In this document: in pieces, positions 40,001 through 64,000 of the stretch | Numbering within the stretch: the first letter of the stretch is position 1 | Layout of the letters: the number at the start of each line of letters is the position of its first letter | Assembly (NCBI GenBank): GCA_023078555.1 | Contig: CM041198.1 | Coordinates: 2,034,800 to 2,098,799 of the forward strand | Source: Ulva prolifera | Taxonomy: Eukaryota > Chlorophyta > Ulvophyceae > Ulvales > Ulvaceae | Length of the DNA stretch: 64,000 nt | Direction: 5' to 3' | Made by a program: the position numbers and the translations under genes | Notes under the pieces: generated by a model | Databases searched by the model: none | What the model saw: only the letters and a program-made list of their open reading frames with translations | What the model was told of the DNA's origin: nothing

Positions 40001-43000
40001 TGCAAACATCTTTGGCCGCAGCCTGTTTGCGTTGGGGGCAGTTCGCACGAAGATGTCCCTTCTTCTTGCAGAAGAAGCAGGTCCTGGTCTCCTCGCGAGG
40101 AGCCTGGCCAGCCGCGACAGCGGCGACCACAGGACCATCACCACGGGCCTGCTTGCGCCAGCCTGGTTTGCCCGCGGGCGCCCCAGACCTTGCCTGCAGC
40201 TGCCGCTGTTGTTTGAGCAAATCGGCGTGCTCAGTTAAACGTGATATAATTACGTGGGGGGAAGAGTGTAATACTTCGCCGCGCACAGCGTTGAACTCCT
40301 CCCCCACTTCTAAAAGTTTCAGTCTAAGCCATCGCTGGCCCACATCGGCACCTAGTGCCTCCAGTTGAGTGTAAACACTCATCACTTCACCACAATACGT
40401 CGCAACGTCTTTGTTGTGTTGTGATAACGAATTGAACCGACTCCACAACCTGTGGATTTCGGCTTCGGTGCTGGGTCTGTACTTGGCAGTCAAGTAAGAC
40501 CATGCTTCACACAGGTGTGACATGCGATAGACAGTCGTCCTATCCGCGTCAGGCAAAGACATTAGGACCTGTGTCCTCGCCCTAGCATGAACACGCTGTT
40601 CGTCCGCAGACGGTGCGTGCTGCAACGAATGGTCTAACTCAAATTGGCCTAACCACAAAAAGACTTTCTGCTCGTACGCAACGAAGCTTTCAGTCTTATA
40701 ATTCCACTCAGGCAACTTTCCTTTTGTCAGATCAGGTTCGCTACGTCCTCGAGATGCGCGCAGCGCCTCAGTCAACGTCGCGAGTGATATGAGGGACTCA
40801 GTGTGACCAGATTCGTTCACAACATGAGAGGAATGAGGCACCTGCCGGCTACTCTGCCCAGTGTTGGAAGATGGTCGTGGCCGGACAATTCGTCCGCCAC
40901 GGAGCAACATGCCCGCGGGCTGTTCTCCGTCAGGGACCTGCTGGTCAGCGTCCCTGGCGACGAGAGGCTGCTGGTCAGCATCGTCACGCCTCTCCTCGCG
41001 AGGAGAGTTGGCTTTAGAATTAGCATTGGAGAGAGACATCCTGCAGTAGGACAGACGGTTGTTCGTCGCGCGCAGCAACTAACCGATGGGTTGGCTCGCA
41101 AGCCGACAGGTTGAGAAGAACAAGCGAACGCGTTCGCTTTTTTTAGCGCTGATCATTGGAACAAGCTTCTCGAATTGTGTCTAACAACAATATACTACGA
41201 GGGAGCTAAATGATGCCTGCGCTTTTGACCGCAGTCTGAGCGCCGGCAGAACAGTGGAATGCCCGCCGTGTCTGCGCACAGACATTGGCCGACGGCTTCC
41301 ATGACAAGACCATAAACAGACATTAAACGCTAACATCATCGATACCATGTCAGAAAAGCTATCATTTGTGCAGGTCAGGACGCGCAGTCCTTGTTCAGGT
41401 CAGGTCAGGACAGCCAGCATCTCATACCTGCTGCGCACAGAGGTAGAACCGAGAGATGCTTGAAGGAGAGTGCTAGTACCGTAAGACAGTAAAGAGAATG
41501 GTTACAGATCTCAGTGTGCACATCCATATATGCACACTGAACACACAACACTCAAGGTTACGGCAGGAAACCCTCGCGGGATCTCTCTCGCTACGTCAAG
41601 ACAATCCTGTTGGCGGCTTACCCCTGCACTGGATCCGCGGATCATCCGTGCATGGGTGCACCTGTCACCACACTGCTGCCCGCAGGCTCATGCATTGTGA
41701 CAGCTGCATGTATAGGTGATGTGTCAGTGGCGTGCGCTTGTCACGTGCACTAGGATGCTGTTGCCTAATGTGTTCGTTGTGCAGTAGCAAAACGTCCGCA
41801 TCAGATGGGTCAGGCGCGGTGCACGAGAATGGTTGGTGGCCCACCAACCATTCGGGCATGCATGCATGTCAGTATTCACGCGCCTCAGAATGGTTGGTGG
41901 CTCACCAACCATTCGGGCATGCCTGCATCTCACTATCCACGGGCCCCGAATGGTTGGTGGGCCACCAGCCATTCGGGCATGCATGCATGTCACTATCAAC
42001 GCGCCTCGGAATGGTTGGTGGGCCACCAACCATTCCGAGCATTCATGCATCTCACTATCCACGGGCCCCGAATGGTTGGTGGGCCACCAGCCATTCGGGC
42101 ATGCATGCATGTCACTATTAACGCGCCTCGGAATGGTTGGTGGGCCACCAACCATTCCGAGCATTCATGCATCTCACTATCCACGGGCCCCGAATGGTTG
42201 GTGGGCCACCAGCCATTCGGGCATGCATGCATGTCACTATTAACGCGCCTCGGAATGGTTGGTGGGCCACCAACCATTCCGAGCATTCATGCATCTCACT
42301 ATCCACGGGCCCCGAATGGTTGGTGGGCCACCAGCCATTCGGGCATGCATGCATGTCACTATTAACGCGCCTCGGAATGGTTGGTGGCCCACCAACCATT
42401 CCGAGCAGTCCTGCATGTACGTCACGATCCGGGAGCAAGCACGCGCCTGTTCTTCCTCCACGTCCTTCACTGCCGCGGTCACCCTCGGGTCCTTGCGGTC
42501 TCGCTCGCTCCGCCGCATCTTCTTGTTGTGATCAAATGCTCGTCGAGGGAAACCGCTGCAAGAACAGGTTGATCACGACTGTGCGTGTGTGCTTACACGA
42601 ACACAGGATGACCACCGATTACGGCCGAACATGTGCATCCTGACATAGTCGTGATGTCGCATGCTCAAGAGGAAACGCACTTGTACTTCACGTCCCTCAA
42701 CATGCTTTTCTGGCCCCGAAATGCTGCTGCTATGTTCCTCGCAGCCGTGTACGCCGTCCCCTCTTTGCCCTCCTGCATAAGTCAATCAAGTCTGGTCGTC
42801 ATCGATGTACTGTGGTGGCCATTGCCTCCCGCGGCGCACGGTCCGTGGCGACCACTTCCAGCAAGAAAACAGCACTTGGGTCAATCACACTACACGCTCA
42901 GCCATACAAGACAACACGAAACCATCCCAATCCACCGTAATCTTCACACTACCGTATGGCAACCGCCCCAGCAAGTCAGCCCGGCGATACAGAGTCAAGT

Positions 43001-43596
43001 TGTTAGCAGGCATAGCACAAGCGTACCCCCGCTGCTGCCGCTGCGATCGCACCAACGTGCTGATGCATCAGCATACTTCCTTCATACATCCGCAGCTTTG
43101 GGTCGCCGGTGTCCTTCAGCAGCGCCTGCATCAGCGGAGACGCCTTGTCCTCGTCCCTCATCTGGCCCAGGATCGCCGACAACTTGTCAGTCCACATCAG
43201 CACTCCCGACTGTAGTACCTCCCATACATGATCGCTGTCGCCCGTCGCAGCGGTAGCAGTGGAGGCCGCTGTGCGTGCCGACGCCCCTGGAGCGGAGCCT
43301 CGATTCCGGGGGTTGATGGGCTGGACCAGCACCGGGGGCTCGATGCCGCCAGCGATCTTCCCCTTCTGGAAGTAGAAAGTAATACATGTCTTCAGGGACT
43401 CCACGTTGTCGACGTCCAAGGTGGCCTTGTTGTCGTTGGCCGACGACAGTGTCATGCCGTCCGCCCCCCCTCCCCTTCGCCAGATACTCCTCGCTAGCAC
43501 ATCCAGCATCTCATTCGCAGAATCGTCGTCCGCTGTCTCTTTGTCGACGACGATCGCGGCATCTCGCTTGAACTGGAATTGAAGGCTGTCCGACAT
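34056..43596 (-). CDS. CACTA accessory protein of unknown fold (position of TnpA), copy 1
   Basis: Exons with matching phases are 43596-43027 (ATG MSDSLQFQFKRD; 190 residues, ends HVGAIAAAAAG), 42772-42681 (EGKEGTAYTAARN) and 42555 to about 42410 (GFPRRAFDHNKKMRRSERDRK). Next comes a palindrome array. An exon follows whose halves, about 41826-41703 and 35117-34919, are now separated by Copia-1 (DADVLLLHNEHIRQQHPSARD). The last exons are 34816-34571 (GGRRARKRGSDRS, a basic NLS-like patch), 34387-34184 (charged, coiled-coil-like KALEKRQAEADEESL-type text) and 34118-34056 (RRSVQEEVWELQQTLIEMLS, stop). I recognise no domain. Its place beside a divergent transposase and its basic plus coiled-coil regions suggest a DNA-binding partner like TnpA, by inference only. 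How the array between exons 3 and 4 is treated in the mRNA is unclear; I find no acceptor before exon 4. Confidence 0.6.
35118..35472 (-). repeat. LTR of Copia-1 (3' LTR in element sense)
   Basis: 355 bp, bounded by TGTCAGAAAAGC and GCATTGTGACA on the + strand. It is almost identical to 41348-41702 and to both LTRs of Copia-2. Confidence 0.95.
35490..41078 (-). other. Copia-1 Gag-Pol coding region
   Basis: A fossil or recent retroelement coding region holding Gag, protease, integrase, reverse transcriptase and RNase H in Copia order. Between integrase and reverse transcriptase it has a long, acidic, low-complexity linker, common in Copia polyproteins. Near-whole. Confidence 0.9.
41348..41702 (-). 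repeat. LTR of Copia-1 (5' LTR in element sense)
   Basis: 355 bp, same boundaries as its partner. The primer-binding site lies just inside it. Confidence 0.95.
41828..42400. repeat. Palindrome array 1: ten 25-bp palindromes, 61-bp period
   Basis: Palindromes begin at 41828, 41889, 41949, 42010, 42071, 42132, 42193, 42254, 42315 and 42376. The core has arms AATGGTTGGTGG and CCACCAACCATT around one central C or G. Linkers alternate between two types (one with GCATGCATGCATGTCACTAT, one with CATCTCACTATCCACGGGCC), so the real repeat unit is a 122-bp dimer. Because 61 is not a multiple of three, long spurious frames run through it on both strands. It lies inside the accessory gene, between exons 3 and 4. 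Confidence 0.95.
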
Positions 43597-43926
43597 CGCG
43601 ACGTATAAACCAGAGAGGACCGGAACCAAACAGACACTTAGCAGCCAACACGTTTACAGTAACTTCAACTTCTTTGGAACTTGGCAAAGCCTATCCGTCG
43701 ATGCTGATATCCAACCTTTTGAAAACACAGTGCCGTGTTGGTGCCCGGCCATTGGCCACAGGGACACTCCCTCGTTACATCCTCACGCCTGATTATCCCC
43801 CGCCACTCCACTCTTCCCCGAGTACGCTTGCACTACGCCTGAACCTCGTTCATACCACGCCGCTCGCTTGCCGCGACGTCTTTCCATTCATCCAGGCAGA
43901 GTTCATCGACGTTTAATGTGCAGATA
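43597..43926. promoter_or_regulatory. Divergent promoter region of accessory and transposase genes
   Basis: 330 bp separate the start codons of the minus-strand accessory gene (43596) and the plus-strand transposase gene (43927). No coding frame is convincing here, so both promoters should lie within it. I see no certain TATA box. Confidence 0.55.
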
Positions 43927-46900
43927 ATGGCTCCGCGTAGGCCTCGCACCGCCAAGCGTGCTGTCGACGACGACCTTGCAGAAGTTGGCGTGCTGCGCCT
44001 TGATCCTCCACTTCGTGATGGGGACCGAAAGTTACTATACAAGTGCACAAAATGTAGTAAACCGTTTGACAGGCTTCTAACTACCCAGAACCACCCCCGC
44101 GCCTGCCCCGCGGGGCGCCCTCAGACTCGTGACGATGGCACTGTAGATGACACAGGCAGCCAGCCAGTGGCGGGCAACCAGCCTCCGGGCGATGTCGACC
44201 TCGGTCGAGTCGACGAGGTCCTCATCGAGGTGTGCCTGTTCCTGAACACCTCGTCTGATCTCCGAGTGCTGACTATCTGGTGATCGTGATTGGTGTCATG
44301 TGGCCAGGTCCCTGAGGGCTCCGACGTATCCGAAGAAGACTACGGAGACGACGATGCGGACAGCCTATACGACGACGCCAGTAGTGTCCTCTCGAGCCTG
44401 TCAGGAGATGACTGGGACACAGACTCTACCGAGGTTTGTCCTTTCGGTGTCTCCCGACGCAGCCTGATTCTCCGAGTTGCTCTTATGCTGGGCACCCACC
44501 CCCTGCTCCCTCTCGGCGTCAATGGCTGGTGACTATGTGCAGAGCGACGCCCTCGACGGCCGCGAGGGTCCACAGGTCGCAGCCGAGGCTGCAGCCGTGA
44601 AGGGGACTGCCGCATGGTGGCGTCAGAGACGGATGGATCCGGTCTCCGACACCTGCCGTCTCACAGTGTTGACTGTATCAATGTGGATCGCCAGCCTGAA
44701 AAGCATGTTCCGGATGAGTGATGTTGTGGTGGACATGTGGTGTCGTTTTGTGCATTATCTACTCTTACCAGATGGGAATATGTTCCCCCCATCCTTCCAC
44801 CTGGTCAAGGCTGTCCTGGCTGTACCAGATGTCTCTTCGGTGACCCGGCACGTGTGCCCACAGTGCTGGACTCTCTTCCCAGGTATAAAGCCGTGTGATC
44901 ATACCCACCACTTGGACGACGTCTGCAACACCCCAGGGTGCACCCAGAAGCGTTTCGAGGTGGACCTGGCAGGCAAGGGTGCACCTTGCCGGAGTGTCTT
45001 CTACTTTGGGGAGGCCGCATCGCTGAAAGACCTGATTCTGCAACCCGGCGTCCTTGCCGCGGTTCGTGCTCATCGAGTGCACGCCCTACTGGATCCCGCC
45101 GGTTTCTGGAAGTCCCCTGCCGGACGTGCCCTGAACGCCGCATGCGGGGGGATTTTCGACAAGGCTGACCCGGACGAGATTGCACTGCTTTTCAGCTTGG
45201 GTGCGCTCGGCTTGAGTTCGACCTATCCTGCGTCCCCGTCACTCAGTTGCCAGGCCATCGATATCGTCTGGGTCCAGTGGGGCCTGCAGTAGCCTCTCCC
45301 CGACACTGAGCCCGCTTGCAGGGGGTGACGGCGCCCAACTGTACGTGAACAAGCAACACGGGACCACAATCTGGGGCATCCGCCTGCTGGACCTCCCCCC
45401 TCATCTGTCTCATTGCAATGATGCCTGGATTCCCCTGGGGGTAGTCGAGGGCCCAACTGAACCCACGAACATGGACAGCATCCTTGCACAGGTACTCGAG
45501 TTCTTCAAGAAGCATGACCCAGGTACGTGTCAGTCTGGCGAGTGTGTACCCAACGCACACTCATGTCCGGCCAGTGCTTGATGTGGCTGTGTTCACTATA
45601 AACCCCCTACAATGCAGCCAGGAAGGGGGAGGACGGGATCGAGGCTTTCAAAGTCGAGATGCCTGACGGAACAGTTCTGCGCATCTGGCCTGTGCTCTGC
45701 TGTGTGGAGGGCGACATTCCATGGATGCAGAAGTTGACAAACAGCATCGGGCACGGCGGCAAGAGGGCGTGCTACCGTTGCGCCCAGAACGGCGTCCGGG
45801 TGTTCGCAGCCAACACAGTACGGTATGTTGGCTCCAGTTGCCGTGCCGTCGCCATGCTGCCTCTGACCACCCCTGCTTTCCCCTGGCATCCCGGCCAAGC
45901 CCGCCTCCGCCACCCCCTCCGACATGGCGTGGGGGCTCCCTACTGTCCTTATCAGACATCCGCCGTGCAGCTGGCTTGGGTTCCACGGCCCGGTCATCCA
46001 GCCTCAGCCTGTTCACGCTGCGGGGCCTGATCAAGGAAAGCCCCTCACAGCGGCGCAAGAGACGGACATTGCCGCGGGTGCGGTGCCAAGGATGGTGCCC
46101 GGCAGTCTGGAACCAGACCCCGGGGCCCCCCCCCCTCGCACGAAGTGGTCCGAGGTTACCACCATCGACCCGGCGACCCTGGCAAAGGACTGCCGGCTGA
46201 AGTACTCTGCTTCAGAGATGTGCGCTCGCGGCCACACAGCAGACCAGTTGACTGAACAGGTGCGGCTACCCTTGTGTTTATTTCTTTCCTCTGTCATGCG
46301 GCCCATGTGCCAGCATGCATGGTCGATGTTCTGCCTATACGCCCACCAGGAGGCTTGCATGCAGACCACCAGCCCCACGTTGGACCGCTACACTGCCAAA
46401 GACACCCTGCTGGAACGGCAGAAACTTGCGAAGAAGGAGCACATCCGCCTGGGGGTTAAAGAGTCTTCCCTGTTCAGCACCCTCTCATACTTCAAGTGCG
46501 CACTCCTACCACAGGACAGCTGCAGTACCGTCATCTGGACCCATGAATACACCGTGAAGGAGGTTGTTTCTGCAGTCCATGCCACTTCTTCCGCTACGGT
46601 GTCGCGCACGTGTTCCTCCTTGGCCTCCTCATGGACTTCTGGAATCAGTGGCTGCCGAGTTCGAAGAGGCGTAAGAAAGCCCGCCCTGCAGGCCCCAGGC
46701 GGTTGTATCAGCTGCCTAAAGAGGTGGTGGCCCAGATCGCTGCCCGCGCGTCCCACATCATGCACACTTATCTGTTCAAGAAAGTGTACACCGACATCAC
46801 CAAGTGCGGTTCCGCGGCCCCCCACAATACGGCAGCGGTCACTGGTTACTGCTGGCAGCTGTCCCATGCACACGTGTCGTGAACCTTACAGCTTGTGGAG

Positions 46901-48292
46901 GCCAGCAGGTGGCTCGCTTCATGTTTGCACTGCTGCAGGCACCGGTCTCGGTGGCTCATGGAGGACTGGCTTGCGTTCACAGAGACGTTCTCCTTGTACT
47001 TGCTGCACGACCTCCATTGGGAGCCCGACCAGGAGGATGTTCGGCTGGTGTTCGAGGAGATGTGGACGCACCTCCGGGCAGGCACCCTGTATTTCCTGCG
47101 GTACGAGGAGCTCCAGCATACCGCACCCCGGATCAAAGCAGCTCAAGACGCGTTGATGAAGTACGGCGCGATGGCAGAAGATCTCTTTGGGGGGGAGGTG
47201 ATCTGCACCTTCAAGCTTCATATTGCAGCCTGGCACCTACCGGACCAGGTGAGATGCTGTGGGCCTGCGTTCTTCTGTCTAGAGTTCTGGATCGAACGCA
47301 TGGTGCAGCTACTTAAACGGCTGATCAAATATCGTTCCACCAAATCACCAGAGAAAGTGTATGTCAACGATGAGCTGCTGCGGCGCACATGCATGAGGCT
47401 GCTTCACAGCAGCGAGACGGCAGAGGCGGCCATGCGCACGTTGCAAGAGGCCGTGGCCTCAGAGAAACGCCGTCGGTCAAAACGGCGCAAGGTCCGGGCC
47501 GCTGTGCACATGGGCGACACCGACTCTGATGACGGTGATGACGACAGGGTGTTTGGGGCGGGTAAGGACCTCGACGCCGAAGAGAAGAAAGAAGTGATGC
47601 CGCTGGGGTACACCGGGGTCGGTGAGTTGTCCGGGCTGCCTTACCTGCTCTACCACCAGGACGCCCTGCAGGAGGCAGGGTGGCCGACCCAGCGGGTCTT
47701 GGGTGCGGGCTACGGCAGGAGAGAGGCCATCATGCGGGCGCTTGGGCTGCCGGTTGCTGGAGAGGTTGTTGCTGAGCGGCAGCTCTGTGAGGTGCACCTG
47801 CGAAAATTCCTGCGAGGGCGGGCTTTGGTAGGGGATGTCCTGACCTGTGCGCAGCACACTGGTCAGGGTAAGAAAGACAATCGATGGTGCCTGCTGAAGT
47901 ACCATGTAGTAGAAGAGGGTACGAATAGGGGCCAGGATCGGTACTATGTCGGCGACTTGCAGTACATAGTCCGTGCCAGGCTCAGCACGGCAGACGGGTC
48001 GCGTATCTGTAGAACCTGCACGGTAGAGGCCAGCGTACTGTACCTCGGTGTGACAGACGTGTACGACTGTAGTACACCCTATACACCCGGATGCAGGGCT
48101 GCGGATGAGGAGCTGAATCGCGCTCCCGAGTTTTACAGGGTGGATGGTGTGCATCACCGTTCCTCGGCTTACACTGGCCGGTATGTAGTGAACATTGATG
48201 CTATGGCCGGGCAGCTGGTTCCGGTGAAACGGACGGCAGGAGGTGTTCAGTACTGGCAGACAGCGAATAAGGCCTCCGGGCGTACTGTGTAA
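43927..48292 (+). CDS. Tnp2-like CACTA transposase, nine exons, open throughout
   Basis: Exons 43927-44229, 44308-44433, 44543-45200, 45322-45522, 45618-45822, 45971-46259, 46314-46495, 46576-46803 and 46909-48292 all join with matching phases and GT-AG ends, totalling 3576 bases or 1191 residues plus stop. N-terminal Zn-finger: YKCTKCSKPF with HPRACP (C-x2-C...H-x4-C). Next is an acidic stretch, then a Cys-rich segment (HVCPQCWTLFPG, CNTPGCTQKRF). The catalytic region has DGAQLYVNKQHG, IRLLDLPPHLS, EGDIPWMQKL with CYRCAQNG, and SLFSTLSYF...VAHVFLLGLLMDFW, the text expected in Tnp2/Transposase_21-like proteins. A DUF4218-like part follows (CTFKLHIAAWHLPDQ, ACGP-type GPAFFCLEFWIERMVQLLK, YRSTKSPEKV). 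By family knowledge it cuts and pastes elements at their CACTA ends. The absence of stops across nine exons suggests recent activity. The family assignment is by motif memory. Confidence 0.85.
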
Positions 48293-48344
48293 ACAGGTCA
48301 TCCCTCAGATGGCGGGATGGGACCACCATGCGGAATGCATGTGC

Positions 48345-48690
48345 CCAGTCAGCGCCATCGCGGAATGGTTGCTGGCCCACCAACCAATCCGCATGCGAGC
48401 AATGCATGTGCCCAGTCAGCGCCATCGTGGAATGGTTGGTGGCCCACCAACCATTCCGCATGCGAGCAATGCGTGTGCCCAGTCAGCGCCATCGCGGAAT
48501 GGTTGGTGGCCCACCAACCAATCCGCATGCGAGCAATGCATGAGCCCAGTCAGCGCCATCGTGGAATGGTTGGTGGCCCACCAACCATTCCGCATGCGAG
48601 CAATGCATGTGCCCAGTCAGCGCCATCGTGGAATGGTTGCTGGCCCACCAACCAATCCGCATGCGAGCAATGCATGTGCCCAGTACAGCT
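48345..48690. repeat. Palindrome array 2: five palindromes, 67-bp period
   Basis: Palindrome cores begin at 48364, 48431, 48498, 48565 and 48632, exactly 67 bp apart. The core is the same AATGGTTGGTGG / CCACCAACCATT as in array 1, but the linker is different (CCGCATGCGAGCAATGCATG and CCCAGTCAGCGCCATC). It starts about 60 bp after the transposase stop codon, so it probably lies in the 3' UTR or the spacer before the next gene. Confidence 0.95.
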
Positions 48691-48954
48691 GAAGTGTCTA
48701 CAGGATGCCCGCGTGCACAGTGTCGATGCTGTGACGTCCTGTGGAGCTCGCCACGGCCAGCCTGGTTTCTAATGGCGCGGTAATTCCCTTTATATGAGGC
48801 ATCGTCGGCCCCGCGTGTCTTCACTGCATCGATCTCCACTCTGACCTGTGTGTACGTACGCGGTATTGTCCCTCGGCTACTGGCGCCGGCAGTACCCAAG
48901 CGCGTGCTGCGTCCCGTTCAATACCCGCGAGCTGTTAAATTAGTGTTACATAAC

Positions 48955-51900
48955 ATGTCGGCCGTAGGCGGCGAGGGTGCTGTTGCCTGCCGTGAAGGGG
49001 ATGTCCAGCCTGACACCAGCGTCACAGTAACCATCCCGCATAGCCGTCTGCGGGCGGCGCTATTGCCCGCTATTGGGACATTAATATCTAGGTCAGGTCA
49101 TTTCACCAATGTAGGGCGGGTCGGGCCCAAAGGGACGCCCGACTCCCACGCTGCTTGCGATGCTTGGTTTGACGTCGGGCTACAGGTCGTAGACCGGGTC
49201 GAAACATCCGTAGATCAGAGCGTTGCATACGTGAAGTATGCTGTAGTCATCGCCTGCCTGCAACTCGGGGGGTGGCTGCGCGAGCAGGAGAGGATGTTGG
49301 TGCCCGCATGGGAGGGACTATCCGCACCCCCGCCTGGATGTGACGCCCCTTTGGCCTGGGTCAAGCTGTATGGTAGGAGGAAGGTGTGCCCATCTCAAGT
49401 GATTTTGATTCCGTCGGCTCTGCTACAGGACCCCTTGGAGGGCACTCCTAGCGCCCATGCCCGGCCGCCACGCCGGCCCATTGTCGGGGCCTTCGACCTC
49501 ATGAGGTTACCCCGAGCATGCAGGAACTGGTCAGTGAACATGTGCGCCCACGTGCCCCACCGGCGCCCGCACAGGCTTCGGATTCGGGTCGCGCCGGGCC
49601 TGCCGGCTCCGAGACAGTGCAGCAGAGCGATAGGGCGGTGCTTGGGGTCCCGTCCTTGCCGAAAACCAAGAAGCGGAAGGAGGCGGACCCTGCCCCGAAG
49701 GCAGACACCGGTGCGTTTCAGTATTGGGTTTATGCCAAGTCATGCATTGTCGCCCGACTTGTGCAGCCGTATGGTTACGAATGCAGGTTTTGTGGAGTAT
49801 GCGGTGACCGGCCCCCGGTCCATTCTGTGGGCCTGGTGCTTCTTTTTCAGCCGCATCCACCCTGACTCCCAGCCCATGAGGGTGCCGTCCAACAAGCGGC
49901 AGAAAACCGGGGCGGAGACGGACAGTCAACAGCCCATAGGCAAAACCAAGGTGGCTGGGCCCACCTGTAATGTGCCTGTCGGCATGAATCCGCTGTGCAC
50001 CTTGTTCTTGACCGAGAAGACACTGGCCCGCACTTATTGCGGTGAAGACGATCTGACCCCAAGCCAGCAGCTGGCGCAGAGGGTGTACCTGCAACCCTCC
50101 TGCCGCGCCGTGCTTGCACAGCATGCTGGCGCCCCCTCTACCACGGTGACACAGCTCTCCGCCGCCGGTAATCTCCTGTACCAGATCCACATCTACTTCC
50201 CTCTTCTGATTGAAGTTTATGTGTGCCCCCCCCCCCCCCCCCCCCCCCCCCTTGGAACCCCACTCGTGTCAGACATGCATGGTCACCCAGATTCTCGAGG
50301 TCCGGTAGTACTGGCTGGTAGCCTGTTAGTGTTGTCCCTAGTTCTGACTAACAATTGATCAGTTAGACCGGTCGTGGACTCGGGGTAGCTTTTGGCTTAC
50401 ATCCCCTCTGTCTCCAGGACATGGACACCCTCGGGGATTTTGTGGAAGCTGTCGCAAATCTTGCGCCTTTCGTAGTGCAGTACGCTGCGACGCATCCTCT
50501 GATCAAACCGGCGCCGGTGCGGCCCCTATGGACATGTATCCTGCTGTAGTCACGCTGATGATAAGTTTACACATTCTACAATCGACTGGCGATTTTTTAA
50601 CAGATCTGCCTTGTAGGAGACCGATGTGTCTGTGATATTGTGTCCGTGGTTCGCATCTGTCGGGGCGTTTCACCTAGCCATCCTCAACGCTGCTGTTTCG
50701 TACATGCCGGTGCGCAAGGGCCGGTCCACCTGCGACTCCGGGCTGCAGCTGTGCATCCGATCCTACCAGGTTATGGTGTACGGTTCGGCGCACTCAGACC
50801 CGGATTTCAGTGCTCGGCTGCCAAACTGGCAACTTGAAGCTCATCGTTTGGACAGCCGCTGCTTCGAGGACCCTCTTTATGCGGCCATATTCGTCACCGC
50901 CGTGAACACCTCGTGTGCGCACCTGGGGTTTCCCATCCAAGCCCATGTACTGGCGATGACGTATCCGAATCATGGTGTGTTCGGATTGCCTCCCCGAGTA
51001 ACTGACCGGGTACACGGCTCGATATGCAGGGCTGACCGCCTGGGGCGTCGGGGCTCCCGTGAAAGACTTCACCAGCCTCCTCATTCCCTTGTGCCCGCCA
51101 GATACACTCTGGCATTGGGGGCTGAGGGCGTGGCGGTACCTTTGCACCGTCTCTGCAACCCCGGCTGCCCCAGAGCAGGGTGGGGTGATGAAGAAAGCCA
51201 AGTGGTTGACCCTGGTGCCCTCGTCGTTCCAGGACATTGACGACTGGGGGTACAACGGGGCCACTACTCTGGCTACAAGAGCCATCGCCATGGGCCTACA
51301 GAATGAAGTCTGCTCCAGGTGTGCGGATGTGCCTACACGCTGTTTGGGGAAGTTCCCATCATACTACAGTTGTATCGGATCGGTGTTTTGTAGCTTTTAG
51401 GACAGTCGGCTGTAACGCATGCTCTGATTATCCAGGATCGAGTTCAGCCACATCCCTAACTGCGTCCTGCAGCAGCTCCCCCCCGGTTCACAGCGTGTAC
51501 CGCAGGTGTCTATTGCCGAGGTGGGTGGCAGTAGTCGCACGCGTACAGATGACAGTCCATGGGGAGTAGGGGCTGGCGACAAGCGGGACAGAGGTGATCT
51601 CGATGTCGCGTCCGGTAAGGGAAGCAAGCCCCGTCATGGCGCCACAGGTGTGGTGGTGGGGCAGTCAGCGGCTGGTGCTGGGGGTGCTGGTGGGGCTGAC
51701 CCCGCCACCGCGGCCGGGGGTGCCGCTGCCGGCGCTGCTGATCAGGCCAAGCCCTCTCATGGCGCCACGGGTGACGGGGGGGAACAGTCAGCGGCTGGTG
51801 CCGGGGGTGCTGGTGGGGCTGACCCCGCCACCGCGGCCGGGGGTGCCGCTGCCAGCGCTGCTGATCAGGCCAAGCCCCCTCATGGCGCCACGGGTGACGG

Positions 51901-52217
51901 GGGGAAACAGTCAGCGGCTGGTGCTGGGGGTGCTGGTGGGGCTGACCCCGCCACCGCGGCCGGGGGTGCCGCTGCCGGCGATGCTGATCAGGCCAAGCCC
52001 TCTCATGGCGCCACGGGCGCCACGGACGGGAGTGGGCCATCGCTGTCCTCTTCCGAGGGGGGGTGGGATGGTGGGATTGTGGAATGGGGGGTCGCCTCGA
52101 GCCTGTATGGACGCAACGCCGCTAGGTGGCCTGATGGGGGAACCCTCCTGGATACTCTTGCCCGAGTATCTGGGATTGCCAGCCCCCCCCAAGACCCCTC
52201 CACCGGGGTCGCAGACG

Positions 52218-52263
<46 letters not shown>

Positions 52264-55200
52264 CTGCAAGCGGTGGTTTGCCCTCCAACTCACATGACCC
52301 TGCTCTCGGCCCGCAATATAACCCTGCATCCGGGCAGGTGCTTCCTAGCTTCGACCCCTGTCAGAAAAGCTATCATTTGTGCAGGTCAGGACGCGCAGTT
52401 CTTGTTCAGGTCAGGTCAGGACAGCCAGCATCTCATACCTGCTGCGCACAGAGGTAGAACCGAGAGATGCTTGAAGGAGAGTGCTAGTACCGTAAGACAG
52501 TAAAGAGAATGGTTACAGATCTCAGTGTGCACATCCATATATGCACACTGAACACACAACACTCAAGGTTACGGCGGGAAACCCTCGCGGGATCTCTCTC
52601 GCTACGTCAAGACAATCCTGTTGGCGGCTTACCCCTGCACTGGATCCGCGGATCATCCGTGCATGGGTGCACCTGTCACCACACTGCTGCCCGCAGGCTC
52701 ATGCATTGTGACACTCCCCCATAAACCCTGCTACGTCTCCACTAGCTGGAGTTTATTACGAACTTCTAGCAAAGCAGGTCCGGGCAGCACTTTAGTAAAC
52801 ACATCTGCTAACTGATCGACAGTGCCAACCCATGCTACCTTAAGGTCATCCATCTGAACATATTCCCGCACTCGCAAGTGCCGCACACGAATGTGCTTGG
52901 ATCTGTCAGAGGACACAGCATTCACTGCCAAGATATTGGCACTTTTATTATCACCCCACAGAGTTGGCCTATACGGGACAAGCTTTAGGTCGAGAAGCAA
53001 CTGCTTCACCCACATCAGCTCGTTGGCTGTTGCACTCATCGCGATGAGCTCAGCCTCTGTTGTATCCCCAGCCACTATACTCTGTTTCTTCGAGCGCCAG
53101 AGAACACAGTTCCCATACACTCGAAGAACCATACCAGACACACTCTTCAAATCAGCAGAGTTCGCAAAATCTGCATCAGAGAATGCCTCTAACAGGCACC
53201 CATGCCCCACAGAGCCTACAAATTGTATTCCTAAATTCTTTGTGGACTGCAGGTATCTCAGAACGTGTTGCACAGCCAACCAATGTTCCTTCAGACTACT
53301 GGACATGTGCCGGGCCAGGGCATGTGCCACGTAGCTGAGGTCAGGTCGTGTCACTCCTGCAATGTACTGGATGCTTCCTACAGCACTCATGAACCTGGAA
53401 TGCTCAGCAGCACTGGCTTTCTCCAGGTCCGGGTGCTCTTTCACACTCCTCAGTTGTTGCCGCGGCACTAACGGAGTGGGAGACTTTCGACAATCAGACA
53501 TACTATACTTTTCAAGCAGGCTATGGATTTTGTTTCGCTGTGTCATGGTGATTGTCTTGGCCTTGCGATCACGCATGATCTCAGTGCCAAGTGCCCAGGC
53601 TAGTTCACCCAGGTCTCTGCCTTCAAATTTTGTGAGAATTATGTCGACAAGTTCTTGCAGCCCCGCAGTGCCGCTGAATATGAACAAGTCGTCGACCCAC
53701 AGGAAAATAAAACAAAGACCAGATGTTCTAACATACAGTCCGGGATCACTTTGTGCGCACACAAATCCCATCTCTGCTAAGACCTTTACTAAAGCTTTAT
53801 GCCACTCGCGAGCAGCTTGCTTCAGGCCATACAGGATTTTATGCAATCTCCATACACGTGCTGTCCCGTCAGTGAAGTACGGGGGCTGTTCAACGAACAC
53901 TTCCTCCTCCAGCTCACCATTCAGAAAAGCACACTGTATATCTATGTGTCTAATTTCTAAATCTGCCTGAGCAGCAACTGACAGCAACACACGAAGTGTC
54001 GCATAGCTCCCAACAGGTGACCAAGTCTCAAAAAAGTCTACACCCTCTACCTGAGAAAAACCCCGCGCCACATAGCGTGCCTTGTAGCGCTGAATCTCCC
54101 CCGCAGGCCCACGCTTGATCTTGAGCACCCATTTGCCCGAGATAGCCCGTTTGCCCGCAGGCAGATAGCACAACCCGAAGGTTCCGTGCTCACCCAGTGC
54201 ATCTACCTCCTCCTGCATGGCACGCAGCCATGCATCCCTGTCCGGACCCGCAAGTCCTTCCTTCATAGAAGGCATATCAGGGTCGGAGGAGGCCTTCTGC
54301 TTCCTGGCGGCAGCTGCTCGGCGCGACCCACGACGCTGAACACTCTGCTGCTCACCAGACTCCACATGCTGAGGCTTCAGGCCTGCACAGGACACTCCAC
54401 AGTCAGCCGCGGCTGATGTGTCCTGATCACAAGCTGAAACATCAATAGCAGCTACAACTGTCTCACTACTAGCAACGTCAGAACCCGCAGGCTCATGCAT
54501 TTGTACAGCTGCTACATCCGCAGCCAATGGAACAAGGCGTCTGCGTACAAGAGGATTGATTTTTATGCGAGGCAAGGCGGCTGGAATGGCCCTCACCTCG
54601 TCAGGCAAATCAACCCCAACTGCGGCTGAGGGGTCCGGATCCTCTCCCCCTAATTCGGACCCGGTCTCCACCTCATCTGGCTCATCCTCCCAGAAAGGCC
54701 TCGGCGCCTCAGCTCCTCGCAAGGGCTGAGCAACTGCCCCCGCGCCAGATGCTGAGGCCGCTGCCGAATTACCCGCTGATCGGACCCGCTGAGCCTCCAG
54801 ATTCTGATGGGCCGCGGCCCTTTCATCATCTGAGACGGTGTAGTCCATGCGCTGTTCATCGTCGTCGTCATAGACACCAGGACCATCGTCATCCTCGTCC
54901 ATGTCATCGTCAGACGCACTGACAGACACTTGAACAGGAAACGCAGCTTCTACACCAGGGTCGTGCAGTGCAGCGTTGCGCGTGACAACATACTGCGCAG
55001 TACGTGAGGGCACAGCGACAGGGTGATGCACTTCACCACGCAAACGAGAGGGAGAAGGGACGTCAGGGTGGGCAACAGCTCTTGATGTCGCACGCGTGCG
55101 ATGCAAAGCTGTTCTGGCTATTTCCGGTGTGGCCCGAGCAGGGTCACGCCGGATAATCTCCGCAGAGGAGCCAGCTCCAAATCGTGGAGAATACACAGCC

Positions 55201-58200
55201 TCACTAGGCTCAGGGTTATCCTGCCGGAAAGTCATTTCCATGACAGGAACCCTACCATGACCAGGGGGGGTGTGAAGCTGGTCACGCAGACGGCGCAACA
55301 CTCCCCCGTCATAGGTGTGCTCTGCCGCGAATGGAGGCACATCGGCGTCGGTAACACGCTCACCCTCATCGTCACCCTCGAAGACAACCGTATAGGAGTT
55401 CGCAAACTCCTCAGGCTCTCTCTTGTCCACAACGGCGGACGCATCGTACTTTCGTACGTGGCGGATCATCTGATCCGCAGTGCACACAACCTGACGCACA
55501 ACAAAAACCCTACCCCCAGGAACATCCTGGGCGTACACACGCTGCATGCTGGGGCCCAGCCCAGCCCCGACCCAGTATGCAAGAACCCCCCTTTGGGACA
55601 ACTTCCGCAGCTTGTCATCTCTAGGGTATGCATACACCTCAACCCCCCACGGACGCTGCTGCCGCAGCAGATCTTGGAACACCTCAACGGAGGTGTCTCT
55701 GAAAAAGGACATATAAGGAATGATATCCTTATCACAAGAACGAACTAAAAACTCATCTAACTCTGTCGTCGCAAGCAACTTGTACTTGCGTTTTTCCTCC
55801 TCCTTCAACTTTTCGCGTTCGGCCTTTTTCATGCGCTTACCCTTCCCCAAACTCCGCTCAGCTTCGTCAACATCCGCAGACGCGTTGACAGCATGCTGGC
55901 CTTTCTGAGATTTGAGGATACTCGCCAACTTGTCATGGTACAGTGCCGAGGACGGCGTGAGATTGTGACCATGGACAACACTGGCGAGGCATTCTATCCA
56001 CAGGAACAGAGGCAGGCCGCTCGCGAGCAGCGCAGCACGGAGTGACTCAAAGGCAACTCCGATCCTCCGCTCAATCATGCCATTACAGCGATGAGCAGCT
56101 GTGGGGGTCAAGCGGTGGATGATGCCACGACGCTGGAGGTAGAGTTTTAAGGCCTCGACCATGAACTCTCCCCCTTTGTCGGTGTGTAGGATGCGCACAC
56201 CCGGTTCACCTGGCTTCACCACATTCACCCGAATGCGTTCGATAATATAAGAGATCATGGCCGCAGCCTCACTCTTTTTGCGCAGACCGACCACGAAAGT
56301 ATAACGAGTAAAGGCACACATCACAAACAAAACATACTTCACACCACCAATTCCTACAGGAGACACAGGACCAGCTAAATCGGCATGCAGTTGCTCACCA
56401 GGAAACTTGGCCTGGCCCATGAGCTCACGATCATTGGCAGAAAATTTGCCCGCAGGCACTTTGCCAATTCTGCAGCCATGACAACGATTCCCTAATGGCT
56501 CGGAATCAACTTTCAAATTTAAATCACCATAAAACACAGCGTTGGCTTGCATACGCTTGAGGACCCACGTGGATTGGTGAAAGGACAAGTGTGCGAGAAA
56601 AGCAGGCTCCAGCAAGTACGCATCATGTGGGACCTCAGCTCCCCCAGCATTGGGTCGCTTCAGGTCAACGGCCGCGACCGCCACATGATGCCACTGCTGT
56701 TGGTCCTCAATAACTGAGGTTGGGCTGCTCTGGTTAGACCAGACTACCCCCCTATTGACCGGCGCACCGACGAGAATAGGTTTCGTGTCTACTGCCATTT
56801 TGAAAGCAAAGACAGGGTGACCATCTACATCAAGTTCCTGATACTTGACGTCGTCCTCTATGTCAGTGGCCATATCGCCCAGACCAGGAACATACAACAC
56901 GTTTCTACGCGTGTCTAGGAACATCTGCTCGTGCCTAAGACCCATCGTACTGAGCAGGTTGTACGGACATTCAGGCGCGTAATAAACACCAGGGATTTCC
57001 ACATCTAACGGATGCGTATTCCCACACTTGTCTACATAAGTACCCAGGTTCACCAGAATGGTTCCCCTACCCATGATAGAAAGCTGCCCTGGTCCCGCGA
57101 GATTGGCAACTTTCTGGCACGGGCCGTACTCAGTAAACATTTCACGATTGCCTACTATATGCATGTCCGACCCACTATCTACAATGATGTTCCACGGCAG
57201 ACGCGTCTGGCTGGGGATACTTTTCAGGCATTTCAACAGTGCAAACATCTTTGGCCGCAGCCTGTTTGCGTTGGGGGCAGTTCGCACGAAGATGTCCCTT
57301 CTTCTTGCAGAAGAAGCAGGTCCTGGTCTCCTCGCGAGGAGCCTGGCCAGCCGCGACAGCGGCGACCACAGGACCATCACCACGGGCCTGCTTGCGCCAG
57401 CCTGGTTTGCCCGCGGGCGCCCCAGACCTTGCCTGCAGCTGCCGCTGTTGTTTGAGCAAATCGGCGTGCTCAGTTAAACGTGATATAATTACGTGGGGGG
57501 AAGAGTGTAATACTTCGCCGCGCACAGCGTTGAACTCCTCCCCCACTTCTAAAAGTTTCAGTCTAAGCCATCGCTGGCCCACATCGGCACCTAGTGCCTC
57601 CAGTTGAGTGTAAACACTCATCACTTCACCACAATACGTCGCAACGTCTTTGTTGTGTTGTGATAACGAATTGAACCGACTCCACAACCTGTGGATTTCG
57701 GCTTCGGTGCTGGGTCTGTACTTGGCAGTCAAGTAAGACCATGCTTCACACAGGTGTGACATGCGATAGACAGTCGTCCTATCCGCGTCAGCAAAGACAT
57801 TAGGACCTGTGTCCTCGCCCTAGCATGAACACGCTGTTCGTCCGCAGACGGTGCGTGCTGCAACAAATGGTCTAACTCAAATTGGCCTAACCACAAAAAG
57901 ACTTTCTGCTCGTACGCAACGAAGCTTTCAGTCTTATAATTCCACTCAGGCAACTTTCCTTTTGTCAGATCAGGTTCGCTACGTCCTCGAGATGCGCGCA
58001 GCGCCTCAGTCAACGTCGCGAGTGATATGAGGGACTCAGTGTGACCAGATTCGTTCACAACATGAGAGGAATGAGGCACCTGCCGGCTACTCTGCCCAGT
58101 GTTGGAAGATGGTCGTGGCCGGACAATTCGTCCGCCACGGAGCAACATGCCCGCGGGCTGTTCTCCGTCAGGGACCTGCTGGTCAGCGTCCCTGGCGACG

Positions 58201-59435
58201 AGAGGCTGCTGGTCAGCATCGTCACGCCTCTCCTCGCGAGGAGAGTTGGCGTTAGAATTAGCATTGGAGAGAGACATCCTGCAGTAGGACAGACGGTTGT
58301 TCGTCGCGCGCAGCAACTAACCGATGGGTTGGCTCGCAAGCCGACAGGTTGAGAAGAACAAGCGAACGCGTTCGCTTTTCTCAGCGCTGATCATTGGAAC
58401 AAGCTTCTCGAATTGTGTCTAACAACAATATACTACGAGGGAGCTAAATGATGCCTGCGCTTTTGACCGCAGTCTGAGCGCCGGCAGAACAGTGGAATGC
58501 CCGCCGTGTCTGCGCACAGACATTGGCCGACGGCTTCCATGACAAGACCATAAACAGACATTAAACGCTAACATTTTCGATACCATGTCAGAAAAGCTAT
58601 CATTTGTGCAGGTCAGGACGCGCAGTCCTTGTTCAGGTCAGGTCAGGACAGCCAGCATCTCATACCTGCTGCGCACAGAGGTAGAACCGAGAGATGCTTG
58701 AAGGAGAGTGCTAGTACCGTAAGACAGTAAAGAGAATGGTTACAGATCTCAGTGTGCACATCCATATATGCACACTGAACACACAACACTCAAGGTTACG
58801 GCGGGAAACCCTCGCGGGATCTCTCTCGCTACGTCAAGACAATCCTGTTGGCGGCTTACCCCTGCACTGGATCCGCGGATCATCCGTGCATGGGTGCACC
58901 TGTCACCACACTGCTGCCCGCAGGCTCATGCATTGTGACAACCCCTCCACCGCTCTGGTTCCGTCGGTCGGGGTTTCTGTTAACACGCAGGATAACAGTC
59001 GGCAAATTGTCATAACCATAGACGACGAGCTGCCTCCGTCCGGGAACAACACCTGCAGCAGGGAGACTCTCCTGCATTGTGCCGCCGCCACCTGGCGCAT
59101 CATGACGCGTTGCAACCCGCGGCTCCAGTCGCCCGGTGATGACCAGAGGATCATGCTCATGATGGTCATCTCTGGGCACGGCCTGATCCCTGATGCTGCC
59201 GCTATGGACGAGGTTATCCTACTAAGTCAGGAGATGTGTCGCATGCTGGCTCCGGGGCCTGAATCACTGTGCTTTGAATGTCCTCGTCGATGTGCATGGG
59301 ATTACGGAGTGAGACAATCAGGGGCAGTGTAACAACGTGGCGCCTGTGCAGACTCCCCAGGACGACGTGGGGGACTTACTGGAGACGCTAGACCTACTGG
59401 CCGCACCTGGAGATCAAGCTGTCGACGATTCATAG
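48955..59435 (+). CDS. CACTA orphan gene, multi-exon, unrecognised; split by Copia-2
   Basis: ATG 48955 (MSAVGGEGAVACREGD) opens a clear first coding block to 49383 (IPHSRLRAALLPAIG, AVVIACLQLGGWLREQE). Further blocks in shifting frames follow: about 49518-49710 (LPKTKKRKEADPAPK), 49880-50215 (NKRQKTGAETDSQQ), 50400-50520 (DMDTLGDFVEAVANL), 50630-50975 (PWFASVGAFHLAILNAAVSY) and 51050-51360. At 51500-52340 comes a low-complexity region holding 123-bp repeats and a poly-G run. After Copia-2 it resumes at 58941 (VNTQDNSRQIVITIDDELPP), has a donor GTGAGA at 59309 and ends in exon 59361-59435 (DDVGDLLETLDLLAAPGDQ, stop TAG). I recognise no domain. Several middle splice joins are not resolved. It lies between the transposase and Ulp1 genes, so a role in transposition or regulation is guessed from position only. 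Confidence 0.5.
50226..50251. repeat. Homopolymer C26
   Basis: A run of 26 C in the orphan CACTA gene, directly after a coding block that ends ...YFPLLIE, so probably in an intron. The length may vary or be an assembly estimate. Confidence 0.95.
51635..52003 (+). repeat. Three tandem copies of a 123-bp coding repeat
   Basis: Units start at 51635, 51758 and 51881. Each encodes 41 residues in frame (HGATGDGGEQSAAGAGGAGG and then ADPATAAGGAA...DQAKP). The copies are almost identical, and a partial fourth begins at 52004. Being a multiple of three, it lengthens the protein without shifting the frame. Confidence 0.9.
52219..52263. repeat. Homopolymer G45
   Basis: A run of about 45 G within the low-complexity part of the orphan gene. 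The frame to its left and the frame that continues to the Copia-2 site differ, so the true length decides whether the gene stays in frame. Such a run is also a common assembly weak point. Confidence 0.95.
52359..52713 (-). repeat. LTR of Copia-2 (3' LTR in element sense)
   Basis: 355 bp with TG...CA ends. The purine tract lies just inside it. Confidence 0.95.
52731..58316 (-). other. Copia-2 Gag-Pol coding region
   Basis: Same parts and order as in Copia-1: Gag with CCHC knuckle, protease, integrase, linker, reverse transcriptase, RNase H. Recognisable along its whole length. Confidence 0.9.
58586..58940 (-). repeat. LTR of Copia-2 (5' LTR in element sense)
   Basis: 355 bp, followed by the TSD ACCCC. 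The primer-binding site TGGTATC lies just inside it on the minus strand. Confidence 0.95.
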
Positions 59436-59729
59436 ATTCCATGGGGTTGGGGTGGCCTGTCGTGCAGCGTGTACGACAGTGGGGGGATACTTGGTGCCAT
59501 TCAGCAGTGCTGGAGCCACCACGCCGCATGGTTCTAGGCAAGTACGGTATTGTGTAGTGTCGGATCTGGCTACGGATTCATCAAGTCCCCTGTACCCCGT
59601 GTCCGCTTAGCATTACACACTATAGCTTATGCACTCGAGCTTCCACACGATATGTTACAACCGCTGCCGCCCTGACAAGAACCTACGCCCGACCGCAGCC
59701 ATGCTTTTATAAAAACGCCTGTATACCTG

Positions 59730-60833: not shown

Positions 60834-61772
60834 CACTAGGAGAATGGTGACGTGGTGGTGAGGAACGCGCGAGGACGGCTCGCGGAAGAGGGGCGGAAGC
60901 GTGGCGGAGCCCCCGGAACGGCGAAAGGACTGTTAGCGGAGCGTCCGGAAGGCAGTCCGGAGCGTGGGAGGAAGTTCCGCGAGCGTTCCGACCGGGTGGT
61001 TTCCAAGTGCACTCCACGTGGGTGTTCCGCCGGAACGTTTCCGGAGCGGTGCCGGAACGCGCAAAGGATCCGCAATGCATCCAGAGGACTGTTTAAGGAA
61101 GAATGCTTAAAATTTCGGAATGATTCCGGATCCGGGGACGTTCCGGCAGAGCCTTGCGGAAGCCGTCCGGAAGCCCGGACGAACATGCTGGTTCATGAGG
61201 GGTTATTACTTGGTTACTCTCTCTCTGTTCGACCGTGCCGGAGGCAGAGTACGTACGTGGTGAGGTCAGCGAGGCCTCCTTTACATGTGTGCCACGTGCA
61301 TGTTGTCGTTGACACGGATGCGACTCGGTATCGGTGTTTGTTCTCTCTTATTCACTCTATTTTAACAGGTGCACCAGGTTTTCAACGTGAATCGCGAATG
61401 GTGCGCACATGACATACGGTCTTGCGCGATAGGCAGTTTCGCGTACGCGTATACAAGCAGCATGTACACCGTCGTTCCGAAACAAGACAGCTTTGTTGAT
61501 GTGTTCACACGAGTTTGTAGGCAGGCGGTCATGCCTTGCATAGGCAATCATAGACTATCATAGACATTGCTTACATTGAGTTCTCGTCACCTTGTGACCT
61601 CTGCATGTCCATACGGAACGACATTACTACTATAACAGGTAATGCCACGTCTAACATGTCATATACCCCACTCATACACTCGGTCACGACCGCCTGTGTT
61701 CAGGGACAGTGTCTTCTGAGCCCCCGTTGGTGTACAACTAATATACAGACATCTTCAATCTGAGTCTTCACC

Positions 61773-64000
61773 TCACGACAGCATCTCAATCAATGTCTGC
61801 ATAAGCTCCCGGACCTCCTCCTGCACGCTCCGCCGCTGTATCATACCGCTGACAGTACACACATATTGAGATATACTTGTTCAGATAAACTGTGGCATAC
61901 CTTGTCCTGTTTAATTGATTCATCGAGCTTCTTTGCCTGCGGACCCTTCCGGTTGCGGGCGGGGCCGGATGCCAGCTTCGCTAATTCGTCCTCGGACTTG
62001 GCTATTCTTTCATTGAGAACCTCGAGGGCATGCCTGAGAGACTCTTCTTCGGCCTCTGCCTGGCGCTTCTCCAGAGCTGGATGAGTATCTTTTTTCTTTG
62101 CCTTCTGCAGAACAACGATGCTGTCACACGATCTCTCGCACCTACGGAAACAACATGACTCACATGACCAGCATATATACGATGTTGATGCATCAGCAAG
62201 CGCACTGCATCATCATGAACGCGCGTACATGAGCCTGGGCTTATGAAAGCACAGATTATGTCAACCTTGTGGAGGTTTGTTCAGATCAAGGCGTACCGGT
62301 TCATCCTCCTGTATGTCCATCTCTGTTGGCCCGCTCCGCCGAGTCTTGGGCACTGGCATCTCGTCGTCCGCAACTTCCAGGCCGGCTGCCACTATGTGGG
62401 GTAGGACCTCGAGTTCTACGTCATCGCTGTCAGGTACATCCTTCCGTGTTCGGTTGAGAACCGGAGGCGAAGGGGGCAGATCGGCGAGTGACCTGTCGCT
62501 GCCTCTCTTGCGGGCGCGTCTCCCGCCGTTGCTGGTCTCGGCCTGCGTAGCAAAGCATGTCGCGATACTGTATCGACGCGACTTTCACGGATGACATCGC
62601 TTTAAAATCCCTGCGTCATGTACAGCGTGGCCGCGAAGACGTACCCGGCCACCTTGTTGGCTCCTCCGGTGAGTGGGACGCAACGGAGATTCCGCTGTCT
62701 GTTCCCTTTTCATCTCACCCAGGATGAAATCCCTAAAGTAGTGGTTGTCAGCCACGTACACTCCGTCTTCCCGTGCCCACTGCGCGGCCGACTTCATCGT
62801 GCCATCGCCGTAAGCAGTCCTGGTTCCGATTCTGGACAGCTGCATGTATAGGTGATGTGTCAGTGGCGTGCGCTTGTCACGTGCACTAGGATGCTGTTGC
62901 CTAATGTGTTCGTTGTGCAGTAGCAAAACGTCCGCATCAGATGGGTCAGGCGCGGTGCACGAGAATGGTTGGCCCACCAACCATTCGGGCATGCATGCAC
63001 GTCAGTATTCACGCGCTGCGGAATGGTTGGTGGCTCACCAACCATTCGGGGCCCGTGGATAGTGAGATGCAGGCATGCCCGAATGGTCGGTGGCCCACCG
63101 GCCATTCGGGCATGCATGCATGTCACTATTAACGCGCCTCGGAATGGTTGGTGGCCCACCGACCATTCGGGCATTCAGGCATCTCACTATCCACGGGCCC
63201 CGAATGGTCGGTGGACCACCGGCCATTCGGGCATGCATGCACGTCACTATTAACGCGCCTCGGAATGGTTGGTGGCCCACCGACCATTCGGGCATTCAGG
63301 CATCTCACTATCCACGGGCCCCGAATGGTCGGTGGACCACCGGCCATTCGGGCATGCATGCACGTCACTATTAACGCGCCTCGGAATGGTTGGTGGCCCA
63401 CCGACCATTCGGGCATTCAGGCATCTCACTATCCACGGGCCCCGAATGGTCGGTGGGCCACCAGCCATTCGGGCATGCATGCACGTCACTATTAACGCGC
63501 CTCGGAATGGTTGGTGGCCCACCGACCATTCGGGCATTCAGGCATCTCCCTATCCACGGGCCCCGAATGGTCGGTGGGCCACCAGCCATTCGGGCATGCA
63601 TGCACGTCACTATTAACGCGCCTCGGAATGGTTGATGGCCCACCGGCCATTCGGGCATTCAGGCAGCTCACTATCCACGGGCCCCGAATGGTCGGTGGGC
63701 CACCAGCCATTCGGGCATGCATGCACGTCACTATTAACGCGCCTCGGAATGGTTGGCGGCCCACCATCCATTCCGAGCAGTCCTGCATGTACGTCACGAT
63801 CCGGGAGCAAGAAGAACGCGCCTGTTCTTGCTCCACGTCCTTCACTGCCGCGGTCACTCTCGGGTCCTTGCGGTCTCGCTCGCTCTGCCGCATCTTCTTG
63901 TTGTGATCAAATGCTCGTCGAGGGAAACCCCTGCAAGAACAGGATGATCACGACTGTGCGTGTGTGCTTACACGAACACAGGATGACCACCGATTACGGC
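61773..64000 (-). CDS. CACTA accessory protein, copy 2 (partial, continues beyond window)
   Basis: Exons match those of copy 1 one for one: from 63930 down to the array (KKMRQSERDRKDPRVTAAVK), then about 62960-62645 without interruption (DADVLLLHNEHIRQQHPSAR, LSRIGTRTAYGDGTMKSAAQ, GVYVADNHYFRDFILGEMKR; donor GTACGT), 62542-62297, 62104-61901 and 61835-61773 (ends RRSVQEEVRELMQTLIEMLS). Exon lengths of the last three (246, 204 and 63) are identical to copy 1, and all stay in phase. Conservation of frame between two diverged copies supports a real protein. The first two exons lie beyond the window. The join across the palindrome array is again unclear. Confidence 0.65.
62964..63772. repeat. Palindrome array 3: fourteen palindromes, 60/61-bp period
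   Basis: Same place in CACTA-2 as array 1 in CACTA-1, with cores at 62964, 63022, 63082, 63143, 63203, 63264, 63324, 63385, 63445, 63506, 63566, 63627, 63687 and 63748. The unit is again a dimer. The copy number and the favoured core variants (GGTCGG, CCGACC) differ from array 1, so each array has been homogenised within its own element. Confidence 0.95.

Follow-up and report, generated by a model that had tools for sequence, protein, structure and literature searches.

Why is one 25-letter palindrome iterated in three separate tandem arrays of a single stretch of green algal DNA, and what keeps it there? The window, that is, the whole stretch analyzed, comprises 64,000 nucleotides of Ulva prolifera (assembly GCA_023078555.1, contig CM041198.1, positions 2,034,800 to 2,098,799) and lies on the contig referred to here as C3 of a source genome of 88.9 Mb in 44 contigs, in which the light-harvesting family PF00504 has 38 matches, as befits a photosynthetic organism. 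It harbors two CACTA transposable elements with 18-bp terminal inverted repeats (TIRs) and 3-bp target-site duplications (TSDs), element 2 being nested inside element 1, and the arrays belong to these elements. The answer that we favor, at about an even chance, is that the arrays would be dimer-binding sites at which a protein of the element acts on promoters and perhaps also on the element ends; the protein, its dimeric state, its identity and both functions are what we infer from the arrays described below.

Palindrome cores and the CACTA families that carry them

The core (core 1) reads AATGGTTGGTGG-N-CCACCAACCATT, and a pattern scan of the window allowing at most 6 mismatches recovered the 10, 5 and 14 cores that a preliminary description of this DNA had reported. 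They are distributed over array A of element 1 (41828-42400, 10 cores, at most 1 mismatch each), array B of element 1 (48364-48656, between the transposase stop and the gene called geneY, 5 cores, at most 2 mismatches) and array A of element 2, which spans 62961-63772 (14 cores, at most 3 mismatches except for the first, shortened core with 6). All three are inside CACTA elements, as had been claimed, with the correction that two of them are arrays A and B of element 1 and the third is array A of element 2. The contrast in period claimed for the array beside the transposase is also borne out, for Tandem Repeats Finder gives 67 bp for array B and 61 bp (plus a two-unit repeat of 121/122 bp) for the A arrays, whose cores are spaced by 60/61 bp. 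Beyond the window, element 1 has a further array B', which is a 6-core inverted copy of B, and two more belong to element 2, namely a short array B of 2 cores and one of 9 cores spaced by 91-102 bp. Genome-wide, with the palindrome scored on both strands and 100 places itemized, core 1 occurs at 1050 places (at most 3 mismatches) versus 0 for the reversed control pattern, by which a chance palindrome is ruled out.

The elements carrying core 1 are called here the T family, with TIRs ending in ...GAATGGTGAC; the TIR CACTAGGAGAATGGTGAC is found in the genome at 104 + 94 places (at most 1 mismatch) versus 1 + 0 for its reversed control. A sample of 14 T-family elements contains 266 cores (at most 6 mismatches), with 2 to 24 cores per array and units of about 49-102 bp. 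Their membership of the CACTA group is seen in the 18-bp TIR beginning CACTA at both ends of 13 elements (for the 14th, c5, the left end only was found) and in the 3-bp TSD, identical in 12/13 elements and reading GGC/GGG in the remaining one, N28. A check of single open reading frames (ORFs) for a Tnp2-type transposase gave DUF4218 with E = 0.0034, short of the cut-off, and no other transposase model matched. In 13/13 T-family elements whose right end is known, the right array stops 499-685 bp short of it, and left arrays begin 1.25-2.2 kb inside in 12/14, the other two having been pushed further by insertions.

In addition, the same genome contains a sister family (C family) with TIRs ending in ...GAATGGCGAC, the C-type TIR being CACTAG[A/G]AGAATGGCGAC with one CAAC variant included on contig C1. 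Its transposases are mostly 57-61% identical to those of the T family and a few are lower (93 matches in all). On C1, a T-type TIR is the nearest inward-facing one for 8/8 transposase matches of at least 77% identity, and a C-type TIR is the nearest for 9/10 matches at 51-60%, the tenth (C1:9497526) being 6.2 kb from a T-type TIR and 7.1 kb from a C-type one. The sister family has its own palindrome, core 2, GAGTGGCCATTCG-N-CGAATGGCCACTC, which occurs at 552 forward places (at most 2 mismatches) versus 0 for the control, with 64-102-bp spacing. In the clusters listed on C1, core-2 arrays occupy two slots, one at 564-669 bp from an end of the element and one at about 1.94-2.03 kb from the opposite end, and these resemble the slots of the T family.

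Linkage of each palindrome to its own family was observed directly on C1, where exact-match clusters were assigned to the nearest inward-facing TIR, the core-1 listing ending at C1:10,286,473. All of the listed core-1 clusters (17/17) are inside or facing T-family TIRs and all of the listed core-2 clusters (14/14) face TIRs of the C type. The 20-kb stretches inward of these TIRs amount to 4.6% of C1. A genome-wide satellite independent of CACTA elements, which the preliminary description had left open, is therefore rejected for the clusters listed on this contig. Furthermore, the palindrome arm shares 7 bp with the TIR of its own family, GAATGGT in the T family and GAATGGC in the sister family, in both cases the inner heptamer of the TIR; random 13-mers of the element share 7 bp with the TIR in 0.56% and 0.73% of draws.

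Within the arrays, the core positions AATGG..GGTG and their mirror are nearly invariant over the 266 cores, the most variable positions being two in the middle of the arm and the pair beside the center. Diversity is lower in the core (0.000-0.067) than in the linker (0.031-0.151) in all six of the unit classes with at least 22 units, to which the comparison was restricted. For 73 units of small derivative elements in three pooled classes, core and linker diversity are 0.002 and 0.043 per site (permutation p = 1e-4, which treats sites as exchangeable, the units being related by tandem duplication). The statement that the palindrome and not the linker has been kept is thus true in that cores vary less than linkers, but it needs amendment because the linkers also keep a motif, ATGCAT, in 188/230 cases over the 14 elements, with 1.4 expected from shuffles. 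The exceptions are mainly one A-linker class (10/32 with the motif) and the short right-hand linkers of small elements (0/6), and 11/12 sister-family units printed contain ATGCAT as well. Linkers are, consequently, not free to vary, though they differ between arrays. ATGCAT seems to resemble the plant RY box. The idea of a functional core appears to be supported by the linkage to CACTA elements and by a core kept while linkers change.

Array positions and the roles they suggest

Copies c1-c4, which are free of large inserts, are 16.9-18.4 kb long and have three arrays each. The order in c1 is left TIR, left gene (-), array A, a gene for a 197-aa accessory protein (-), transposase (+), array B, geneY (+), geneX (-), array B' and right TIR; this gene order is called E1-type, and that of copy c6 and element 2 is called E6-type. 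In both gene orders three genes have an array about 115-300 bp ahead of their inferred ATGs, the distance being about 115-122 bp for the left gene, 236-242 bp for geneX and 298-300 bp for geneY. In the window, the left accessory gene has its inferred start codon on the minus strand at 41709 in element 1 and at 62845 in element 2, about 118 and 115 bp from the respective array A, both by sequence reading, and the start of geneY in element 1 (48955-50358, plus strand) has its inferred ATG 298 bp from array B. The sister left array likewise abuts a weak homologue of the left gene (E = 0.006, and 0.065 for a second exon, the target set being small), and the sister right palindrome is upstream of a geneY homologue (E = 3.5e-6). 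An array after the transposase is not a feature of all related transposases, since none was present in the 1.8 kb fetched at three sister loci.

Because the arrays are just upstream of accessory genes, a protein bound at them would probably set the expression of the left gene, geneX and geneY, and because two of the three arrays are towards the element ends, the same protein may help to mark the ends or bring them together in transposition, in the way that TNPA serves Spm/En in maize. The palindrome would then be a family-specific recognition site whose arm takes up the inner heptamer of the TIR of that family, and the ATGCAT of the linker would be a second site, common to both families. A narrower possibility is that the arrays are promoter arrays only, the palindrome and ATGCAT being activating or repressing sites which are read largely by host transcription factors and have no role in transposition. 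The placement before three inferred starts and the frequency of ATGCAT in the linkers of both families would suit it, and so would the finding that geneX and geneY each retain a B-type array with its flank, in the same orientation, despite inversion of the module in which they lie. However, the two families share one genome and therefore one set of host factors, and yet their palindromes differ, and both arrays, with hardly varying cores, persist in derivatives in which the left gene and geneY are reduced to 5' remnants, even though such remnants permit a promoter role. We regard this restriction to promoters as rather unlikely.

The inversion itself concerns the right module, which is inverted in E1-type elements relative to E6-type elements and to the sister family. 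In E1-type elements, arrays B and B' are inverted copies flanking an 8-kb gene module, and the stretch before geneX in element E6 is related to the stretch before geneY in element 2 (69% over 305 columns). Identity between the two types drops from about 87-94% on the left side of array B to 66-77% on the far side; direct E1/E6 homology ends 114 bp past this array. These features, together with the wide range of core numbers per array, would be expected if the arrays were recombination junctions or self-expanding palindromic repeats, breakage-prone sequences which swap and invert the right module and whose spread needs no bound protein. Such an origin is very unlikely, for the cores vary well below the linkers of the same arrays, and pure expansion would neither separate core from linker nor put arrays at gene starts.

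Retention of the arrays was observed in six small elements of 6.0-8.4 kb which have T-family TIRs and, apart from N28, identical TSDs (5/6). Among the matches listed, none in any of the six is to the accessory gene or to those transposase exons that were tested; what is kept of the left gene is a short 5' remnant, the geneY start beside the arrays is detected in three, and geneX matches fall on translated array. Both arrays persist in all six: the left one has 10-24 cores, of which the last is degenerate, and the right one has 2. This favors a cis role which would go beyond gene expression, although the remnants leave a promoter role possible.

It might be supposed, accordingly, that the arrays are transposition sites only, namely extended TNPA-type subterminal repeats, and that array B is a by-product of inverted duplication. 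Two arrays towards the ends in both families, their presence in all six deletion derivatives and the 97% identity over 317 bp between array B plus flank and the right array of c1, which are inverted copies, are all in line with this. A family-specific motif kept in non-autonomous copies is indeed what a TNPA-type system has, but the palindrome arrays do not come to a few hundred bp from each of the two TIRs, as left arrays are deep and one array is in the middle of the element; moreover, an array separates the transposase from the next gene in E6 and element 2 as well, where the gene order is the other one. The last 300 bp are occupied by distinct short subterminal repeats, GCGGAACG (GCGGAA/GGAACG), present 3-7 times per 300-bp end in 5/5 T-family elements counted (c1, element 2, E6, N28 and N33, the terminal 300 bp of element 1 at 33023-33322 having no separate count). 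In these elements GGAACG occurs 4-6 times per end versus 0.23 per 600 bp in the c1 interior. Sister-family ends have weaker repeated hexamers only, at most 5 per end. A role confined to transposition is decidedly unlikely, and since the GCGGAACG repeats are present separately, the palindrome arrays can be described as an added layer.

The preliminary description had also offered a hairpin precursor of small RNAs, and transcribed hairpins might alternatively stop transcription. The palindromic cores can fold as short hairpins and, on the left-to-right strand of the element, T-G (51 cells) exceeds C-A (15) among the non-Watson-Crick cells. On the other hand, 117 of the 3192 cells of the 266 cores are unpairable (86 other, 16 A-C and 15 C-A) versus 63 that are T-G or G-T, the arrays are upstream of inferred genes, and window positions 41000-64000 gave no Rfam match at gathering score, which also disposes of a known structured RNA there. 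As 36 of the 86 other unpairable cells are beside the core center and may be loop, the pairing argument is itself weak. The hairpin option finds little support in these figures and is, in our judgment, scarcely probable.

Several points weigh against the favored reading of arrays bound by an element protein. The start codons were read from the sequence alone. No core is present between the divergent accessory and transposase genes of the T family, no array precedes the sister geneX (0/3 loci), and array B of c1 is about 8.6 kb from either end of the element, while the ordinary GCGGAACG repeats already occupy the end itself. The 17/17 and 14/14 linkages are not independent events, because copies are related by descent. 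Each palindrome arm still shares 6 bp with the TIR of the other family, T-family arms with GAATGGC exist (26/266 cores have T-G at that pair), and the T/C match between TIR and core, being one base in one family split, is therefore suggestive only. In addition, among the fragments of element proteins scanned, no recognized DNA-binding domain was found except a sub-threshold zinc-ribbon at the transposase N-terminus.

With considerably more doubt than the favored reading itself, we suggest that each CACTA family may constitute a matched recognition set of TIR heptamer, array palindrome and DNA-binding protein which change together. A shift in specificity would then split one family into two without cross-regulation or cross-mobilization in one nucleus, and the arrays would double as junctions for swapping or inverting the gene module.

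Comparison with known systems

TNPA recognizes the subterminal repeats of maize En/Spm and is both a positive and a negative regulator, according to the part of the report available (PMC2613891). As in En/Spm, an element-specific repeated motif is present towards both ends of the Ulva elements and retained in non-autonomous copies. Unlike in En/Spm as outlined in that part, the Ulva units are about 49-102 bp long and comprise a 25-bp palindrome and, in most cases, an ATGCAT box, the arrays are 0.5-2.9 kb inside the element and once in its middle, on top of the separate GCGGAACG repeat, and a TNPA homologue was not recognized in the Ulva elements.

The nearest precedent, as far as the same partial source goes, is soybean Tgmt*, whose subterminal repeats can form 2 palindromes on the left and 12 on the right, and which together with Tgm1 represents two subfamilies differing in subterminal motif and transposase (PMC2613891). 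Subterminal palindromes, and two CACTA families of one species with different motifs and transposases, are thus common to soybean and Ulva. The Tgmt* palindromes, however, are within 159 and 732 bp of the TIRs, and the available text notes neither promoter arrays nor a second motif. Chenopodium CACTA elements also contain tandem arrays near one end, of a satellite of about 171 bp which was described as captured and of which a similar satellite is present outside CACTA elements in another species; in contrast to Ulva, a palindromic core is not noted in the accessible part of that paper (PMC8978399). Palindromic promoter arrays in algal CACTA elements were not recognized among the titles and abstract openings listed in searches of open-access literature.

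At stake is what keeps the CACTA families of one genome apart and in what way their DNA-binding partners, which are poorly conserved, change along with their sites, questions which the consulted portion of PMC2613891 raises. Since Ulva has two many-copy sister families with different palindromes in equivalent slots, co-change of site and protein is directly testable there.

Genes, insertions and surroundings

Element 1 extends from 33023 to the window-equivalent position 78803, with the TSD GCC identical on both sides; its left TIR is at 33023-33040 (plus strand) and its right TIR is beyond the window. Element 2 extends from 60834 to 76108 (window-equivalent; 15,275 bp) with the TSD ATA identical on both sides, its left TIR being at 60834-60851 (plus strand) and its right end beyond the window. 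It is without about 3.4 kb of the c1 sequence, including most of the transposase gene, and is therefore a defective copy.

The transposase gene of element 1 (43927-48289, plus strand) has several exons, an inferred start, a Cys-containing N-terminus and a last long ORF with the sub-threshold DUF4218 similarity. Divergent from it is the gene for the 197-aa accessory protein (43006-43596, minus strand), which has a 43% identical homologue in the sister family and whose fold predicted from the single sequence was uninformative (predicted local distance difference test score, pLDDT, 38). A search of IMG/VR with the core pattern and the transposase gave no match. In an E6-type element, geneX (L026:4545-6896) ends in a stretch that weakly resembles Ulp1/SENP1 proteases (E 0.17 in Pfam and 0.25 with SENP1 in PDB), sub-threshold signals which make an Ulp1-like protease a lead and nothing more. 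CACTA elements with Ulp1-like regions have been reported, and these may bear on geneX, to judge from the part of the source available (PMC2528002).

Element 1 also contains two Copia long terminal repeat (LTR) retrotransposons, both on the minus strand. One (35118-41702, found by self-comparison, with RVT_2, rve and gag matches) is just inside the left gene, which it breaks, and the other (52359-58940) is 99.6% identical to the first by self-comparison. The LTRs of about 355 bp are at least 99% identical, and both copies are regarded as having entered element 1 recently. Immediately beyond the left TIR of this element, positions 32540-32879 match the Copia LTR in reverse orientation at about 90% identity and are probably a solo LTR.

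Copy c1 (4587-22027) is bracketed by two ends of the sister-family type (copy c1 positions 2144-25009, L008-L010), as though it had inserted into a sister element, and the triplets outside these ends (TCA and TAG) do not match each other. Directly outside the sister-family TIR there are about 5 kb of tandem repeats (L010:5010-10000, c1 25010-30000), possibly a satellite. Finally, a 123-bp tandem repeat in the Gly/Ala-rich frame of the right gene module (51625-52017 and 52219-52263) is followed by a 45-bp G run, and a direct duplication of about 2.9 kb (20473-23328 versus 26694-29519, 82% identity) is located outside the CACTA elements.

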